NCBI RefSeq assembly: GCF_023516555.1
Contig: NZ_JAMGBD010000001.1
Coordinates: forward strand, 1,054,001 to 1,118,000
Source: Sphingomonas alba
GTDB lineage: Bacteria; Pseudomonadota; Alphaproteobacteria; Sphingomonadales; Sphingomonadaceae
Direction: 5' to 3'
Length of the DNA stretch: 64,000 nucleotides
This document shows, one piece after another, positions 5,347 to 12,797 of the stretch; position 1 is the stretch's first letter, and each line of letters starts with the position of its first letter. The notes under the pieces are model-generated. The model worked only from the letters and a program-made list of their open reading frames with translations. It did not search any database and was not told where the DNA came from. A program made the translations under genes and the position numbers.

Positions 5347-6693
5347 TTAGATCACCAGAATCAGGCTGGCGCCGCCCTCGGGTGCGTCGCCGGCGCTGAT
5401 CGATCCGCCGTGCGCCAGGGCCACTTGGCGGGCGAAGCTCAGGCCGACTCCGCTGCCGCCCTTGTGCGTGGTATAGAACGGCAGGAAGATGTCGTCCCGA
5501 CGATCCGGCGGGATGCCCGGGCCATTGTCCCGGATTTCGATCCTCACCTGCCCTCTCGGCTGCCGGACGATGGCGAAACGAAGCTGTGGCTTCGCGACGT
5601 CAGCAGTCGCCCGGATGGCGTTGCGCAACAGGTTGATGAGCGCCTGCGCCAGGAGTTCGGGGTCTCCACTGACCTTCAAGGTCGGCGGCGTCACGTCGAT
5701 ACGGGTATCGATCTCACGATCCGGCATGCTCGCGGTTGCCAGGCGCAAAATCTCCTCCGCCCAGGGCTTGGCCGGGAAGCTCTGGCGATGGACTTCCGGC
5801 GCCTGCGCGAATTCGCGATAGCTTTCGACGAAGCGGGAGATGCCTTCGGCGCGGCGGGCAACGGTTTCGGTTGCAATGCGCGCATCGCCGAGGTCGATAC
5901 CCTTGGCCTCCGCAGCCGCGACCATTTCCGCCGCGGACCGCGCAAGCGACGTAACCGGGGTCAGCGAGTTCATGATTTCGTGGGTGAGAACCCGGACGAG
6001 GTCCGCCTGGGCCGCGATTTCCAGAGCCCCCAACTCGCTCTGCACGGGCAGGATGGAAAGGACGGTGACTCCGCCTTCCAGGCGCGCGACATGGGCTGAC
6101 GCGAAAATTGCCCGGTGCGGCACGCCCTCGATCATCAGACGCGTGATCTTACGCGTGCCCGGCGGCAATTGGACCGCGGCGGCAAGCTCGGGTCCCAGCT
6201 CGCGCAAATCTTCCGCGCGGGCGATGTGTAGCTGGGCCATCAACTGGCGCGCCGATTTGTTCAGCATCTCGACCTTGCCGTCCTGGTCGATGGCGACCAG
6301 CGCGCTCGGACTGTCGTCGACAATGGCGGACAAATAGCGCGCTTCGGACGAAGCGCTGACGTGGCGCGCCTGAAGCTGCTTCAACGCCGCATCGAGCGTG
6401 TCGCCAAGGACGTCGAAGCCGCCGCCGCTGGGATCGGAGAAGCGCTGCGCATAATCCTCGAAGCGCACGGATTCGATGAACCGTGAGACCTGGAAATTGG
6501 TCCGGCGGATGAAAGCCCAGAGGCTGGCGAGCGCCGCGAAGGCGATGAGCAGCGCGACCATCCGGGCCGCGCGCAAGTCGGCCATCCGCATGGACTCGAT
6601 GAACAGCCAGATTGCCGCCAGCAGGACCGCCGTCCGCCAGGCGAGACCGAACTCGAAGCGGCGGCGGAAGGCCGGCTTCTGCTTAAAGGCCAT
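5347..6693 (-). CDS. NtrY-like sensor histidine kinase of the exporter module
   Basis: 448 residues. Two hydrophobic helices (about 20-33 and 44-62) anchor it, with almost no periplasmic loop, so it probably senses the membrane or a partner protein. A PAS-like region (about 118-215) precedes the phosphoacceptor box LTHEIMNSLTPV (His238), typical of the NtrY group. The HATPase domain has NLLRNAIRA, DNGPGIPPD and GGSGVGLSFA. It overlaps the upstream response-regulator gene by 11 bases, so both are translated together. In other bacteria such kinase/sigma54-regulator pairs sit beside MacA/MacB-like exporters, as here, and are inferred to control them. Confidence 0.9.
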   Translation of the reverse strand: MAFKQKPAFRRRFEFGLAWRTAVLLAAIWLFIESMRMADLRAARMVALLIAFAALASLWAFIRRTNFQVSRFIESVRFEDYAQRFSDPSGGGFDVLGDTLDAALKQLQARHVSASSEARYLSAIVDDSPSALVAIDQDGKVEMLNKSARQLMAQLHIARAEDLRELGPELAAAVQLPPGTRKITRLMIEGVPHRAIFASAHVARLEGGVTVLSILPVQSELGALEIAAQADLVRVLTHEIMNSLTPVTSLARSAAEMVAAAEAKGIDLGDARIATETVARRAEGISRFVESYREFAQAPEVHRQSFPAKPWAEEILRLATASMPDREIDTRIDVTPPTLKVSGDPELLAQALINLLRNAIRATADVAKPQLRFAIVRQPRGQVRIEIRDNGPGIPPDRRDDIFLPFYTTHKGGSGVGLSFARQVALAHGGSISAGDAPEGGASLILVI

Positions 6694-8056
6694 GCTTTTC
6701 CATGCGCCGGTACAGCGCGCCGCGGCTGAGCCCCAATTCCGACGCCGCGAGCGAGATGTTGAAATGGTGCATCCGCAATGCTCGCTCGATCATCTGCTTC
6801 TCGAGTTGGTCGAGATTGAGGTTGCCACCCAGCAATTGCAGCGACGGCGCATCCGGCCGGCTCGGCAGCGGAAAATCCTCGATCCGGTAGCTATCGCCGT
6901 CCGCAAGGATGACAGCGCGCTCGGCGGCGTGGCGCAGCGCCCGGACATTGCCCGGCCAGTCGTAATTGACGAGCAGGTCGAGGGCGTCGCCGCCAAGCTC
7001 CCGTACAGGCTTGTCGTACTTGCGCGCATATTGAGAGAGATAATGCTCCAGCAGCACGGGAATGTCTTCGCGCCGTGCCCGGAGCGCCGGCAAGTGGATC
7101 TCGATTGTATTCAGCCGGAACAGCAGGTCCTGGCGGAAGCGGTTTTCGTCCGACAGCTTCTCGGCGGACAGGTTGGTCGCGGCGACAACGCGGACGTCGA
7201 TCGGCACCGCCTTGTTGGCGCCGACCGGGACGACCTGCCTTTGCTCCAGCGCGGTCAGCAGCTTGGGCTGGAGATGCAGCGGCAGATTGCCGATCTCATC
7301 GAGGAACAGGGTACTGTGGTCGGCGGCCTTGAGGCGGCCGAGACGGTCGGAAGACGCACCGGTGAAGGCGCCTTTCATGTGACCGAAAAGCTCGGATTCG
7401 AACAGGCTCTCGCTGGTCGCGCCAAGGTCGATGGCAACCATGGGCTTGCCTGCACGGCGCGACAGGCGATGGATTTCGCGAGCGACGATTTCCTTGCCGG
7501 TGCCGTTCTCGCCGAGGATCAGGACATTCGCGTCGGTCGGCGCCGCCCGCTCGATCAGCTGGCGCACACGGCTCATCGCGTCGGACTTTCCGAGCAACGG
7601 CGTCTCGGCGCTCGACTGGCCGATTTCCGTCGACCGTTCTCGCTCCAGCCTTGCCTCGATCCGTGTCCGCCTTAGGGCGGCCGCGCTGCGTACCGTCGCC
7701 GCAAGCCGCTCATTGCCCCACGGCTTCGCGACAAAATCGCTGGCGCCCCGCTTGATCGCCTCGACCGCCACCGACACCGCTCCATGGGCAGTGATGATGA
7801 CCACCGCCGCATCCGGGTCGAGCTTCATGATCCGGCCCAATTGCTCCAGGCCTTCGCTCCCATCGGTTGCGCCGCGTTCAAAATTCAGGTCCAGGAGGAT
7901 GACGTCGGGCGAGTCCTTCTTGAGCACCGTCGCCAGTTCATCCGGCGCGGTCAGTGTCTCGACCCTAGCGAAAAGCTCGCGCAGCGCCAGCCGCGCGGCG
8001 AGCGCGATGTCGGGATCATCGTCAACCACCAGGGCAAAGTCGAAAGGCTGGCTCAT
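6683..8056 (-). CDS. Sigma54-dependent response regulator (NtrC family)
   Basis: 457 residues in the classic three-domain order. The receiver (1-120) has the acidic pocket VVDDDPD and phospho-Asp56 (LLDLN). The AAA+ domain (about 150-385) has Walker A GENGTGKE at 182-189, the sigma54-contacting GAFTGA at 229-234 and Walker B LFLDEIG. The C-terminal Fis-type helix-turn-helix is AASELGLSRGALYRRM. It overlaps the downstream kinase gene by 11 bases. A palindrome at 8079 lies 22 bases before its start codon and is repeated twice upstream of the divergent exporter operon, next to a sigma54 promoter. This makes it the likely activator of that operon and perhaps of itself. Confidence 0.95.
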   Translation of the reverse strand: MSQPFDFALVVDDDPDIALAARLALRELFARVETLTAPDELATVLKKDSPDVILLDLNFERGATDGSEGLEQLGRIMKLDPDAAVVIITAHGAVSVAVEAIKRGASDFVAKPWGNERLAATVRSAAALRRTRIEARLERERSTEIGQSSAETPLLGKSDAMSRVRQLIERAAPTDANVLILGENGTGKEIVAREIHRLSRRAGKPMVAIDLGATSESLFESELFGHMKGAFTGASSDRLGRLKAADHSTLFLDEIGNLPLHLQPKLLTALEQRQVVPVGANKAVPIDVRVVAATNLSAEKLSDENRFRQDLLFRLNTIEIHLPALRARREDIPVLLEHYLSQYARKYDKPVRELGGDALDLLVNYDWPGNVRALRHAAERAVILADGDSYRIEDFPLPSRPDAPSLQLLGGNLNLDQLEKQMIERALRMHHFNISLAASELGLSRGALYRRMEKHGL

Positions 8057-8078: not shown

Positions 8079-8094
8079 TGTCCGGAAACGAACA
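8079..8094. promoter_or_regulatory. Palindromic operator 1 (probable response-regulator site)
   Basis: TGTCCG-GAAA-CGAACA, the first of three copies of a TGTCCG-N4-CGRACA palindrome in this intergenic region. It lies 22 bases before the start of the sigma54 regulator gene and about 25 bases upstream of the -24 element of the exporter promoter. It could serve autoregulation, activation, or both. Confidence 0.6.
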
Positions 8095-8118
8095 GCTACA
8101 TTTGTAGTCAAAGCCAAT

Positions 8119-8135
8119 TTGGCACGCCGCTTGCA
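8119..8135 (+). promoter_or_regulatory. Sigma54 (RpoN) -24/-12 promoter of the exporter operon
   Basis: TTGGCACG-CCGC-TTGCA matches the consensus YTGGCACG-N4-TTGCW at every defined position, with the GG and GC dinucleotides at the required spacing. It points toward the adaptor gene and predicts a transcript starting near 8146, giving a leader of about 100 bases. A sigma54 regulator with an intact GAFTGA loop is encoded divergently just upstream. Confidence 0.85.
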
Positions 8136-8207
8136 GCTATTTGGGCATGAGCGGATCGATTACAACCTGTTTCGTGAGCGTAGGGGCCGTTGCGGCGCCG
8201 TTATTTT

Positions 8208-8223
8208 TGTCCGTTTTCGGACA
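8208..8223. promoter_or_regulatory. Palindromic operator 2 in the exporter leader
   Basis: TGTCCG-TTTT-CGGACA, the perfect member of the palindrome set. It lies downstream of the sigma54 promoter and exactly 21 bases (two helical turns) before operator 3, so both would sit on the same face of the DNA. Confidence 0.65.
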
Positions 8224-8228
8224 CGAAC

Positions 8229-8244
8229 TGTCCGGAGCCGAACA
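8229..8244. promoter_or_regulatory. Palindromic operator 3, abutting the adaptor start codon
   Basis: TGTCCG-GAGC-CGAACA, ending on the base before the ATG at 8245 and containing the GGAG that would serve as ribosome site. Spaced 21 bases from operator 2. Confidence 0.6.
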
Positions 8245-9561
8245 ATGAGCGTGATGGAATTCCGCAAGAACGAGCACGAAGAACCCAGTGCGGTCAGCGG
8301 CGGCGCGATGGACAAAGTCGTCGTCCGCAAGCGGATCGACAAGCGCATCCTGATCGCCGGTGCCGGCGGCTTGGCTCTGATCTTGATCATCGCCTTCTGG
8401 CTGTTCGCCCCGCGCGCCGGTTCGCAATCCGTTGCCATGGACCGGCTGACGATTTCGACGGTCGACAAAGGCGTGTTCGAGGACTTCCTGCCGCTCCGTG
8501 CCCGCGTCACTCCACTGGTGACCGTCTACCTCGACGCCGTCGAGGGCGGCCGCGTCGAAAAGAGGGTCGTCGAGGACGGCGCCCAGGTCACCGAAGGCCA
8601 GTTACTGGCCGTCCTGTCCAACGCTGAATTGCAATTGTCGACTCTCGAGAAGCAGGCTGAGGTCGAGCAGCAGCTCAACAACATGCGCAGCCAGGAACTG
8701 GCACTGACCCAGACCCGCAATTCCAACCTACGCGACCTCAACCAGGCGGAGACGGACCTCGCTAAGGCCCGGCGGCTTTACGACCTCCAGAAAGATCTCG
8801 CCGACAAGGGTTTCGTCGCGAAGAAGACCTTCAACGACACCAAGGACGACCTGCAGTATCAGCAGCAGCGGTTGGCGATCCTGCAGCGCAGCATCGCCCA
8901 GACCGAGGCGCTGCAGTCGAGCCAGCTGGTCCAGCTCCGCGCGGCCGCCGGCTCGCTCAGCTCGAGCATGGGTATCGCTAGGAACAGCCTCGGCCAGCTC
9001 AATATCCGTGCGCCTGTAACCGGGCAGCTCAGCGGCTTCGACATCCAGCTCGGCCAGTCGCTCCAGCAAGGCCAGCGCATCGGCCAGATCGACAGCGCCG
9101 GCGCCGACAAGCTGGTCGCTGACGTTGATGAATTCTATCTCGGCCGCGTGCGCGCCGGCCAGACCGCGACGGTCGATGCCGACGGCAAGACCTATCGCAT
9201 GAAGGTGACGAAGGTCCTCCCCCAGGTCCGCAACGGCCAGTTCCAGGCGGAGCTCATTTTCCTTGGAGCCGAGCCGCAATCGATCCAGCGCGGCCAAACC
9301 TTGCAGGTCAAGCTGACGCTCGGCGATTCCAGCCGCGCGGTGCTGATCCCGAACGGGGCCTTCTTCAACGATACCGGTGGCCAGTGGGTGTTCGTCGTCG
9401 ACAGCGGCGGCAGCAGCGCCACCAAGCGTCAAATCCAGATCGGCCGAAAGAATGCCGACTTCATCGAGGTGCTCGGCGGGCTGAAGCCCGGGGAGAAAGT
9501 CGTCACCTCTTCCTACAGCGGGATGGTCGACAAGGACCGTCTGAATTTCGAGAGCGAATAA
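8245..9561 (+). CDS. Periplasmic adaptor (membrane-fusion protein) of a MacA/HlyD-type ABC exporter
   Basis: 438 residues. A short cytoplasmic N terminus is followed by one membrane helix (about 34-53). A split lipoyl domain flanks a long coiled coil (about 130-240, many Gln/Leu/Glu heptads), then come the beta-barrel and membrane-proximal domains; the second lipoyl half carries LNIRAPVTGQLSGFDIQLGQ. It would couple the inner-membrane permease to an outer-membrane channel, none of which is encoded here. The ATG at 8245 has GGAG 8 bases upstream. It is the first gene of a four-gene operon behind the sigma54 promoter. The substrate is unknown; relatives export peptides, lipids or drugs. Confidence 0.88.
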   Translation: MSVMEFRKNEHEEPSAVSGGAMDKVVVRKRIDKRILIAGAGGLALILIIAFWLFAPRAGSQSVAMDRLTISTVDKGVFEDFLPLRARVTPLVTVYLDAVEGGRVEKRVVEDGAQVTEGQLLAVLSNAELQLSTLEKQAEVEQQLNNMRSQELALTQTRNSNLRDLNQAETDLAKARRLYDLQKDLADKGFVAKKTFNDTKDDLQYQQQRLAILQRSIAQTEALQSSQLVQLRAAAGSLSSSMGIARNSLGQLNIRAPVTGQLSGFDIQLGQSLQQGQRIGQIDSAGADKLVADVDEFYLGRVRAGQTATVDADGKTYRMKVTKVLPQVRNGQFQAELIFLGAEPQSIQRGQTLQVKLTLGDSSRAVLIPNGAFFNDTGGQWVFVVDSGGSSATKRQIQIGRKNADFIEVLGGLKPGEKVVTSSYSGMVDKDRLNFESE

Positions 9562-9579: not shown

Positions 9580-10260
9580 ATGCTGACCATGACCGGCCTG
9601 ACCAAGACCTACCGCACCGACACGGTCGAGACGACCGCGCTCGACGCCATCGACCTCGACATCGCCGACGGCGAATTCGTCGCGATCATGGGCCCGTCGG
9701 GCTGCGGCAAATCGACGCTCCTCAACGTCATGGGCATGCTGGATAGCCCGACGGCAGGCTCCTATGTCTTCAACGGCCATGAAGTCGCGGGGCTGAGCGA
9801 GACGCAACTCGCCGACACCCGCAAGGCCAACATCGGCTTCATCTTCCAGAGCTTCAATCTGGTCGACGAGCTGACGGTCCGCGAGAATGTCGAGCTCGCC
9901 CTCCTCTACCACAATATCCCGGCCGGCGAGCGCAAGGCGCGCGTCGATCGCGTGCTCGACAAGGTCGGCATCGCCCACCGCGCCAAGCACCGTCCGACCC
10001 AGCTGTCCGGCGGCCAGCAGCAGCGCGTCGCTGTCGCCCGCGCACTAGTGGGCGAGCCCAAGCTGATCCTCGCCGACGAGCCGACCGGCAACCTCGACAC
10101 CGCGCACGGCGAAGAGGTCATGCGGATGCTCCGCCAGCTGAACCAGGAAGGCTCGACCATCGTCATGGTCACGCACTCCCCGGCGCATGCCGACTTCGCC
10201 AGCCGCATCGTCAACATGCTCGACGGCCGCATCCTGCAGGAGCGGCGCCGCGCGGCCTGA
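9580..10260 (+). CDS. ABC exporter ATP-binding subunit (MacB/LolD type)
   Basis: 226 residues forming one complete nucleotide-binding domain: Walker [10 protein letters not shown] (about 38-46), Q loop FIFQSFNLV, signature [10 protein letters not shown], Walker [13 protein letters not shown] and switch histidine in VTHSP. The EPTGNLD form and the size are typical of the LolD/MacB/FtsE group, which powers mechanotransmission across the envelope rather than ordinary transport. It starts 18 bases after the adaptor and lies 44 bases before the permease, on the same strand. Confidence 0.95.
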
Positions 10261-10304
10261 GCCGCCGCGGTCTGAGGTGCACCATGGGATCAAGGAGCAT
10301 GGCC

Positions 10305-12797
10305 ATGTGGAGGAATTACTGGACGGTCGCCACGAGGGCGCTGGCCAAGAGCAAAACCTATTCGATCATCAACATCGTCGGCCTGGCCATCGGCATGGCC
10401 GCGTGCGTCATGATCCTGCTCTACATCCGGTACGAGCAAAGCTACGACAAATGGCTTCCGGACGTCGACAACACCTACCAACTGCAGGCCTGGTACCCGC
10501 ATCCTGAGGATGGCGAGCCATTCTTCCTGCAAATGTCGGCAGTCGTCACTGAAAGCCGCGTGAAGAAGGATTTCCCGCAGGTCGAAAAGGCGGTCTACGT
10601 CCAGGGCGCGGGCCCGGTCTTCTACCAGAACGGCCAGGCCAGCTCGACCAAGGACTATCTGTTCGCCGACGGCGATTTCCTCAGCGTCGTGAATCTGCCG
10701 ATGAAGTACGGCTCGTCATTGCCCGAGGCGCAGACCGCGGCGATGAGCGAGACCGAGGCGCGCAACCGCTTCGGCACCGACAATGTCGTCGGCCGCACCT
10801 TCACGGTCATCTCGCGCGGCAAGAAGCGCGACTTCAAGATCACCGGCGTCTTCAAGGATATTCCGAAGAATTCCTCGATGAAGATCGCGGCCGTCCTGCG
10901 GCTCGATTACGTCGCTTTCAACGCCGACAACCCGTCGTTCCTGACTTGCTGGGGCTGCCAGTCGGGCTGGGTTTACCTGAAGCTGCGTCCGGGTTCGGAC
11001 ATCAAGGCGATGGAAGCGCAGATGCCCTCTTGGGAAAAGCGCAACATCCCTGACGAGCCGAATGCGGGAATCCGCTACAATGCCGGCGACGACCAGGACT
11101 GGCACTTCGTCAACCTGAAGGACGTCCACCTCGGCAAGGCCCAGGGCGGCGTCATGACGCCGGGCAATGACGAGAAGTCGATCGCGACCTTCGCCATCAT
11201 CGCCCTTTTGATCCTTGGCATGGCGGTGGTGAACTTCACCAACCTTGCCACGGCCCGTGCAAGCCAGCGTGCCCGTGAGGTTGCTCTGCGCAAGGTGCTG
11301 GGCGCGAACCGGCGGCAGCTGATCGTCCAGTTCGTCGGCGAGTCCGTGTTGATCTCGGCTGCGTCGATGTTGCTGGCATTGACGCTCGTTGAGCTACTGG
11401 TGAAGCCGTTCGCGGCCTTCCTCGATGCCGACTTGTCGCTGCACTATTTCGGGCAAGGCGGGATCCTGTTGCCGGCCATCGCCCTGACGCTGCTGGTCGG
11501 TATCCTCGGCGGGCTCTACCCGGCCTTCTTCCTGTCCCGCTTCCAGCCGGCGCAGGTATTGAAGGCGAACCGTTCGGCCGCCGAAACGCCGGGTTCGGGA
11601 CGGCTGCGCACCGCGCTCGTCATCCTGCAATTCGCTGTTTCGATCGGCCTGATCATCTGCACCGCGGTCATCTACGGCCAGACGGTCTACGCCCGCTCGG
11701 TCGACCCGGGATACAAGCGCGACCACATCATCCAGGTCGATGAACTGTCGCGTGCCCAGCTTTGGCCCTTTGGCGAAACCATCGTCGATGCGTTCAAGCG
11801 AGTCCCCGGCGTCACCGCCGTCGGCCGCACCGAGATCGGCGTTGCAACCGACAATAACAACAACACCGGACTCATCCCGCCTGGCGCCAACAAGCAGGTC
11901 AACATCGGCCAGTACAGCGTCGATGAGGGCTTCTTCTACGCCATGGGACTGAAGCTGGTCGCCGGGCGCTGGTTCGACCCGAACCGGCCGATGGACGACA
12001 TGACCACGCCTTATCCGACCGACGAAAACGTCGAGCGCCAGTTGGCGGCGCGCGGCGTCAACGTCGTCCTGAACGAGTATGCGGTTCGGAAGCTCGGCTT
12101 CAAATCGCCGCAAGATGCGATCGGCAAGGTCGTGCGCAGCGAGCTGTTCTCGCCGGGCACGGGCGTCGTCAACATCACCATCATCGGTGTCGTGAAGGAC
12201 AGTCGCTTCCGGACCGTTCGCCAGCCGATCGATCCGATCATGTTCCGCAACATCAACCTGGGCATTTCCTGGGCCATTGTCCGCTACAACGGCGATCCAC
12301 AGGCGGTTCGAGCCGGGCTTGAGCGGGCGTGGAAGCAGATCACCAATGAAGTGCCCTTCACCGCCAAGTTCAGCGAGGACATCATGGCCGAGCTGTACAA
12401 GGCGGAGGACGCGCGGGCGAAGATCTTCGCCGCCTTCGCGATCCTGGCGGTGATCATCGGCTGCCTCGGCCTCTTCGGCCTTGCCGCCTTCACGGCCGAG
12501 CGTCGCACGAAGGAAATCGGCATCCGCAAGGTGCTGGGTGCCCGTACGCGGGACATCGTCCGGCTGCTTGTCTGGCAGTTCAGCCGGCCGGTGCTGGTCG
12601 CCAACATCATTGCCTGGCCAATCGCCTGGTGGATGATGCGCGACTGGCTGAACACCTTCGACCAGCGGATCACGCTTGGGCCAATCCCGTTCGTGATCGC
12701 CGCCGCGGTGGCGTTGACGATCGCCATCGTCACCGTCGTCGGTCATGCCATGAAGGTGGCCCGGGCAAACCCGATCCACGCGCTCCGTTACGAATAA
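10305..12797 (+). CDS. Double MacB_PCD-FtsX ABC permease in one polypeptide
   Basis: 830 residues with two tandem copies of the MacB periplasmic core plus FtsX core. The first half has a membrane helix near 18-40, a large periplasmic domain to about 290, then helices ending in the coupling motif EVALRKVLGANRRQL. The second half repeats this with helix about 430-455 and coupling motif KEIGIRKVLGARTRDI before the last helices. Classic MacB has one such unit fused to its ATPase and dimerises; here one chain supplies both halves and the ATPase is separate. The start at 10305 is preferred because AAGGAG lies 7 bases upstream; ATGs at 10284 and 10299 are badly spaced. Confidence 0.92.
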   Translation: MWRNYWTVATRALAKSKTYSIINIVGLAIGMAACVMILLYIRYEQSYDKWLPDVDNTYQLQAWYPHPEDGEPFFLQMSAVVTESRVKKDFPQVEKAVYVQGAGPVFYQNGQASSTKDYLFADGDFLSVVNLPMKYGSSLPEAQTAAMSETEARNRFGTDNVVGRTFTVISRGKKRDFKITGVFKDIPKNSSMKIAAVLRLDYVAFNADNPSFLTCWGCQSGWVYLKLRPGSDIKAMEAQMPSWEKRNIPDEPNAGIRYNAGDDQDWHFVNLKDVHLGKAQGGVMTPGNDEKSIATFAIIALLILGMAVVNFTNLATARASQRAREVALRKVLGANRRQLIVQFVGESVLISAASMLLALTLVELLVKPFAAFLDADLSLHYFGQGGILLPAIALTLLVGILGGLYPAFFLSRFQPAQVLKANRSAAETPGSGRLRTALVILQFAVSIGLIICTAVIYGQTVYARSVDPGYKRDHIIQVDELSRAQLWPFGETIVDAFKRVPGVTAVGRTEIGVATDNNNNTGLIPPGANKQVNIGQYSVDEGFFYAMGLKLVAGRWFDPNRPMDDMTTPYPTDENVERQLAARGVNVVLNEYAVRKLGFKSPQDAIGKVVRSELFSPGTGVVNITIIGVVKDSRFRTVRQPIDPIMFRNINLGISWAIVRYNGDPQAVRAGLERAWKQITNEVPFTAKFSEDIMAELYKAEDARAKIFAAFAILAVIIGCLGLFGLAAFTAERRTKEIGIRKVLGARTRDIVRLLVWQFSRPVLVANIIAWPIAWWMMRDWLNTFDQRITLGPIPFVIAAAVALTIAIVTVVGHAMKVARANPIHALRYE

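Follow-up and report, generated by a model that had tools for sequence, protein, structure and literature searches.

The locus described here raises the question of how an exporter operon is controlled when copies of one palindrome stand on both sides of its putative sigma54-dependent promoter and the last of them runs up to the start codon of the first exporter gene. It lies in the window, by which we mean the whole stretch of 64,000 nucleotides of Sphingomonas alba DNA that was analysed. The features that matter for the question are the following.

An exporter locus with three exact palindromes

5347..6693, minus strand: sensor histidine kinase gene (HATPase_c 1.3e-22), overlapping the end of the regulator gene
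6683..8056, minus strand: NtrC-type response regulator gene (Pfam Response_reg, Sigma54_activat and HTH_8)
8079..8094, plus strand: palindrome copy 0, exact match to TGTCCG-N4-CGRACA, lying about 19-22 bp from the start of the regulator gene across 13 distinct genus loci
8119..8135, plus strand: sigma54 -24/-12 promoter, exact consensus, kept in 13/13 distinct genus loci
8147..8248, plus strand: predicted leaderless 33-codon ORF (from translation), its TGA at 8246-8248 overlapping the adaptor ATG at 8245
8208..8223, plus strand: palindrome copy 1, exact match, first of the leader pair (probable enhancer)
8229..8244, plus strand: palindrome copy 2, exact match, second of the leader pair, which contains the ribosome-binding site of the adaptor gene (GGAG at 8234-8237)
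8245..9561, plus strand: HlyD/DarC-like periplasmic adaptor (HlyD_3 2.5e-12; DarC model 206 bits)
9580..10260, plus strand: ABC transporter ATPase (ABC_tran 7.5e-37; DarD model 277 bits)
10284..12797, plus strand: duplicated MacB/FtsX (ADOP-like) permease (MacB_PCD and FtsX, two stretches each; ADOP model 325 bits)

The exporter operon is ordered HlyD-type adaptor, ABC ATPase and duplicated MacB/FtsX permease, and the genes for the regulator and the histidine kinase are divergent from it. That an NtrC-type activator is encoded divergently, as the original prediction had it, was confirmed by the Pfam matches: the protein has the receiver, sigma54-activating AAA+ and Fis-type helix-turn-helix domains of this architecture. 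The genome contains rpoN (one Sigma54_DBD match, 210 bits). The equivalog cut-offs of the darobactin exporter DarBCD were missed by all three models (DarC 206 of 450 bits, DarD 277 of 375, DarB 82.5 of 700), and the permease scored 324.9 bits against the cut-off of 622.3 for the ADOP family (TIGR03434), to which it is similar in layout only. An Rfam scan of the window returned two tRNAs only, which rules out a known RNA family for the leader, and a plasmid search using the leader as query gave zero matches.

The promoter, TTGGCACG-CCGC-TTGCA, begins at 8119 and has GG at -24, GC at -12 and the correct spacing between them; from its position alone, transcription is predicted to start near 8146. 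Copies 1 and 2 are spaced 21 bp apart and the adaptor ATG at 8245 follows directly after copy 2. The original prediction had placed the promoter at 8119 and the palindromes at 8079, 8208 and 8229, and these coordinates are correct to the base; its description of two palindromes 21 bp apart, 3' of the promoter, of which the last abuts the adaptor ATG and holds its ribosome site, was likewise borne out.

In the whole genome (2,507,338 bases), exact matches to TGTCCG-N4-CGRACA occur at 8079, 8208 and 8229 only. When up to one mismatch was allowed, matches counted by strand numbered 37 in the genome (19 on the forward and 18 on the reverse strand), compared with 25 (12 and 13) for the reversed-letter control, so the one-mismatch copies elsewhere look like background. 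Within the window, at up to two mismatches, there were 22 palindromes against a shuffle mean of 14.6, and 22 was reached in 10 of 100 shuffles; because this number is not clearly above the shuffles, the signal in the window lies in the exact matches and their clustering. The promoter pattern has one exact match in the window, and 53 of 100 shuffles gave at least one match at up to one mismatch, so that the promoter call rests on conservation and not on its own rarity. One self-complementary copy with a single mismatch, CGTCCGGGTTCGGACA, lies within the permease gene at 10986-11001 of the window and is probably there by chance.

Conservation of the palindrome and the promoter

Homologous loci were found by searching for the adaptor. 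In the family, 27 of 149 sampled genomes matched at first and 77 of 397 afterwards; there were also matches in 16 of 71 genomes of the genus and in 7 of 289 genomes of a class sample (the window's own genome is counted in each); five Sphingomonas records were found with the adaptor at 72-76% identity in the best segment. Ninety-four loci were mapped, of which 89 differed from one another in the 150 bases before the adaptor, and partial family matches in three genomes (G218, G372 and G430) were left out. Using a criterion of at most one mismatch per half, we found the palindrome in 87 of the 89 distinct loci, the exceptions being L077 and L083; the original prediction had pointed to related regulator/exporter loci as the place to look for it. 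Between regulator and adaptor there were 241 copies against 4 for the reversed letters of the same stretches, and the density there was 7.60 per kb compared with 0.16 in the adaptor coding sequence. Where successive copies lie less than 40 bp apart, 89 of 99 distances fall at 19-23 bp. Outside the family, six of six distant loci have at least one copy within 600 bp upstream; a divergent regulator match was present in the fetched stretch in four of them and in neither L095 nor L096. Because the palindrome is kept beside the regulator in all but two distinct loci, is enriched there and is usually paired, it is probably the site of the neighboring NtrC-type regulator.

The distances between upstream copies and the promoter are phased, with a period of about 11-11.5 bp (R 0.73, n=79), and 0 of 2000 random sets were as strong. 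Outside the layout of the window, the nearest upstream copy lies at 56-59, 68-71 or 79-83 bp in 61 of 75 promoters, these being the promoters that have a copy within 160 bp upstream; the favoured distances in the relatives are near 57, 69 and 81 bp. Paired inverted repeats at a phased distance from the promoter, as expected of enhancers, are a property of the relatives; the window's own pair is downstream. The search pattern found no promoter in 17 of the 89 loci, in most of which the regulator is only 33-39% identical. Conservation and pairing of the site and the position of the promoter are read directly from the alignments; that this regulator binds the site and that this promoter is the one driven, we infer.

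The relatives differ in layout. With P1 defined as the upstream promoter and P2 as a second promoter directly before the adaptor, 13 loci are arranged like the window, 20 have P1 and P2, six have P2 only and 33 have P1 only. The distance from the start of P2 to the adaptor ATG is 27-28 bases in 12 of 26 cases (e.g. L006, L008, L049), 38-45 in 13 and 32 in one, and at 27-28 bases a leaderless adaptor mRNA is therefore predicted. A promoter-ATG pattern occurs in at least 224 of 397 family genomes and, among the matches listed, 37 of the 98 distinct strings checked have an ATG at +27 or +28 from the promoter start; neither number was counted as evidence.

The leader pair and the reading frame through it

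The layout of the window was present in 13 of 16 genus matches (L001, L033-L044), and five further loci are identical to five of these 13 across the aligned stretch; the genus matches with another layout are L045-L047 (57-62% identity). Counts across the 13 loci are not independent, because the loci share ancestry. In all 13 the promoter lies at -125 to -127 from the adaptor start, and the first base of the leader pair is 87-90 bp beyond that of the promoter hexamer, while the pair extends right up to the adaptor start. A palindrome pair downstream of a sigma54 promoter and within the leader, which had been proposed from the window, is thus seen in this layout across the genus. Both copies of the pair pass the criterion in 10 of the 13 loci, only the first does in L034 and L035, and neither does in L042. 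In L034-L036 the part of the second copy that surrounds an AAGG ribosome site has decayed, as if two constraints might be competing there.

The claim that all three copies act on the promoter was not supported. Copy 0 keeps its distance to the regulator start and not to the promoter, from which it is separated by 37 to 49 bp across the genus loci and by 330 bp in L038 (= L032). An array of three copies around the promoter is ruled out by this tracking of the regulator. Copy 0 at 8079 is probably the regulator gene's own autoregulatory site, and, because copy 0 tracks the regulator gene and not the promoter, the leader pair at 8208-8244 is probably the enhancer of the exporter promoter. The DNA that separates copy 0 from the promoter in L038 (= L032) contains a short ORF. 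That enhancers in a leader are unusual, as the original prediction stated, is only partly right: downstream enhancers of sigma54 promoters have precedents in FleQ and FlbD, although, among the papers listed in searches of open-licence PubMed Central, nothing was directly on point for downstream enhancers.

A pair in this position lies in the path of RNA polymerase, and one of its copies covers the ribosome-binding site, which would also suit a roadblock or repressor site at which the bound regulator limits elongation or translation and does not activate. We regard this as quite improbable: the same pairs in relatives stand upstream of sigma54 promoters at phased distances, like enhancers, and in L038 (= L032), where copy 0 is so far away, the leader pair is the sole copy near the promoter.

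The second regularity of the genus leader is a frame of 33 codons. In 13 of 13 distinct genus loci its ATG lies 1-3 nt after the transcript start predicted from promoter position only, and the frame crosses the two palindromes and terminates at the start of the adaptor gene (RTGA), where its TGA overlaps the adaptor ATG or GTG. Elsewhere from -120 to -39 there are five ATGs in all 13 loci together; L039 has two more in-frame ATGs close by. Averaged over pairs of loci, identity is 0.31 in the ORF body, 0.74 over the palindrome pair and 0.76 for the adaptor proteins.

It could be argued that the fixed spacing reflects DNA geometry only and that the ATG and the open frame are incidental, since promoter and pair are always 87-90 bp apart in the 13 loci, relatives show that helical phasing is important, and open frames through the palindromes arise easily because these hold few stops. 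We consider this unlikely. The ATG is kept in all 13 loci within otherwise unconserved DNA, and no stop interrupts the 247 codons of the frame, compared with 14 stops among the 494 codons of the two alternative frames (Fisher p 0.003, uncorrected for relatedness). Furthermore, the distance from the ATG to the adaptor start is exactly 98 nt in 13 of 13 loci, whereas that from promoter to ATG varies by 2 nt, and in L041 a one-base loss and a one-base gain jointly preserve the frame. The start codon, frame and length are thus conserved as such in the aligned loci; from them we infer that the ORF is leaderless, indifferent to its own sequence and used to deliver ribosomes to the adaptor gene.

Outside the genus the frame is rare. 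L003, from another genus and alone among six genomes of that genus in having the system, has a leaderless 27-codon ORF that runs through its palindrome pair to ATGA, and in L066 a leaderless ORF of 89 codons ends at the adaptor start. Against the reading of these frames as functional, L003 and L066 are the only two of the 33 P1-only loci in which a leaderless ATG is open to the adaptor start. ORFs that end on the adaptor start from other start codons (L007, L053, L070) may be due to chance, and RTGA is common where no such ORF exists because adaptors begin with Met-Ser.

Folding of the leader gave a mean unpaired value of 0.23 for the region of the adaptor ribosome site. Shuffling palindrome 1 together with the bases that directly follow it raised the value to 0.39 (8 shuffles), which suggests, in this model, that the palindromes help bury the ribosome site; translation through them would open it. 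Shuffling the ORF body left the pairing unchanged at 0.23 (8 shuffles), which counts against the explanation preferred below. An RNA hairpin was rejected as the conserved element, and the DNA palindrome was taken as the conserved unit, because, as RNA, the stems of the copies at 8079 and 8229 contain a C.A mismatch, and in several loci copy 2 gives only a weak fold.

The explanation that we prefer, with a probability of roughly 0.6, is that the regulator on the leader pair activates the promoter and that the leaderless ORF delivers ribosomes to the adaptor. The NtrC-type regulator encoded divergently would recognise the palindrome as its DNA site; when phosphorylated, it would bind the leader pair, loop back and activate the sigma54 promoter about 90 bp upstream, while the single copy at 8079 would serve the regulator gene itself. 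The transcript would begin almost on the AUG, and a ribosome starting there would translate 33 codons, whatever their sequence, across both palindromes, whose RNA could fold over the adaptor ribosome-binding site. It would then stop on the adaptor start codon (RTGA) and re-initiate, so that the ORF would act as a ribosome-delivery device through which the operon can tolerate enhancer DNA in the leader. The link to translation that had originally been suggested has support of another kind than was noted, namely the leaderless ORF through the pair. More tentatively, the enhancer may have moved into the leader, where a leaderless ORF surrounds it of which only the start, length and stop are maintained; behind the polymerase, the ribosome would open the hairpins, pass directly to the exporter gene and perhaps help clear bound activator, and activation and translation would share the same 100 bases.

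Relation to known systems and to UrcA-family genes

The locus shares with known NtrC-type/sigma54 systems a -24/-12 promoter, paired inverted repeats about two helical turns apart, an adjoining cognate response regulator and kinase, and rpoN in the genome. What sets it apart is that, in this genus, the pair is found 3' of the promoter, forms part of a conserved ORF and reaches the start codon. In the excerpted text of Haft et al. 2006 (PMC1569441), a sigma54/PrsR arrangement of PEP-CTERM systems is described in which the PrsR motif ends in TTTACA. The protein architecture of PrsK/PrsR and a sigma54 motif about 63 nt after the activator motif resemble what is seen here, but the motif and targets differ and our regulator scores 377 bits against a cut-off of 503 (377.3 and 502.6 for TIGR02915). 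Membership of the PrsR family is ruled out by this score and by the non-TTTACA motif.

Two kinds of short ORF are close to the one proposed here. Beck et al. 2016 (PMC4965119) describe, in the excerpts considered, 5'-terminal AUGs of E. coli that can set expression of the next gene; when the 5'-terminal uAUG was changed, expression of the gene behind it was affected in some cases, with the strongest effect for ptrB. The AUG at the 5' end of the mRNA, before a gene led by a Shine-Dalgarno sequence, would be the same, being predicted here from the promoter position; compared with the uORFs in those excerpts, length, frame and overlap are here conserved across species and the ORF holds enhancer DNA. 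A review of translational coupling from 2025 (PMC12548453), in its excerpted part, treats short ORFs whose role is to deliver ribosomes, citing for them a paper on leaderless transcripts of mycobacteria (PMC4633059). The sole role of bringing a ribosome to the next gene would be common to both, whereas in our case the sigma54 enhancer lies in the same DNA, and in an alphaproteobacterium. No description of an enhancer within a leaderless ORF was found in searches of open-licence PubMed Central.

The results give a probable site and operator layout for a sigma54-controlled exporter family in sphingomonads, and they provide a clean natural example of an ORF in which selection acts on frame and length and not on sequence. 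If the preferred reading is true, it shows how an operon can accommodate enhancer DNA between promoter and gene, and it is a warning that short ORFs of unconserved sequence can still function.

Many of the loci contain a small ORF between P1 and the adaptor. Eleven first ORFs from relatives were scanned, of which eight pass the cut-off of the UrcA model (TIGR04433), one falls below it and two have no match. The gene for a secreted small protein of the UrcA family is first in the exporter operon in L004, L010, L020, L022, L025, L082, L088 and L091, and its product is a possible partner or cargo of the exporter. According to excerpts of PMC8963506, urcA of Caulobacter is uranium-responsive and is controlled by UzcRS with another motif. 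The same protein family takes the first operon place in several of our relatives, whereas the window is without the gene and the Caulobacter gene has the UzcRS motif. For the palindrome motif, or for UrcA together with exporters, nothing directly on point was among the papers listed in searches of open-licence PubMed Central.

These first ORFs, together with shorter ones resembling signal peptides that follow the promoter in other lineages, could be taken to mean that the 33-codon ORF is what remains of a decayed urcA-like gene, or that it encodes a functional peptide. We give this very little credence. The window ORF matched no NCBIfam model, TIGR04433 included, at E 0.01, the 13 peptides have no sequence in common except where the palindromes encode them, and a remnant would not hold exactly 33 codons.

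Among the relatives, L063, L068, L069 and L071 have related hydrophobic ORFs of 27-28 residues upstream of the adaptor, which end in PLA or PFA and resemble a signal peptide followed by a stop. The ORFs of L005, L048, L050 and L062 have 46 residues and end in PVLA.
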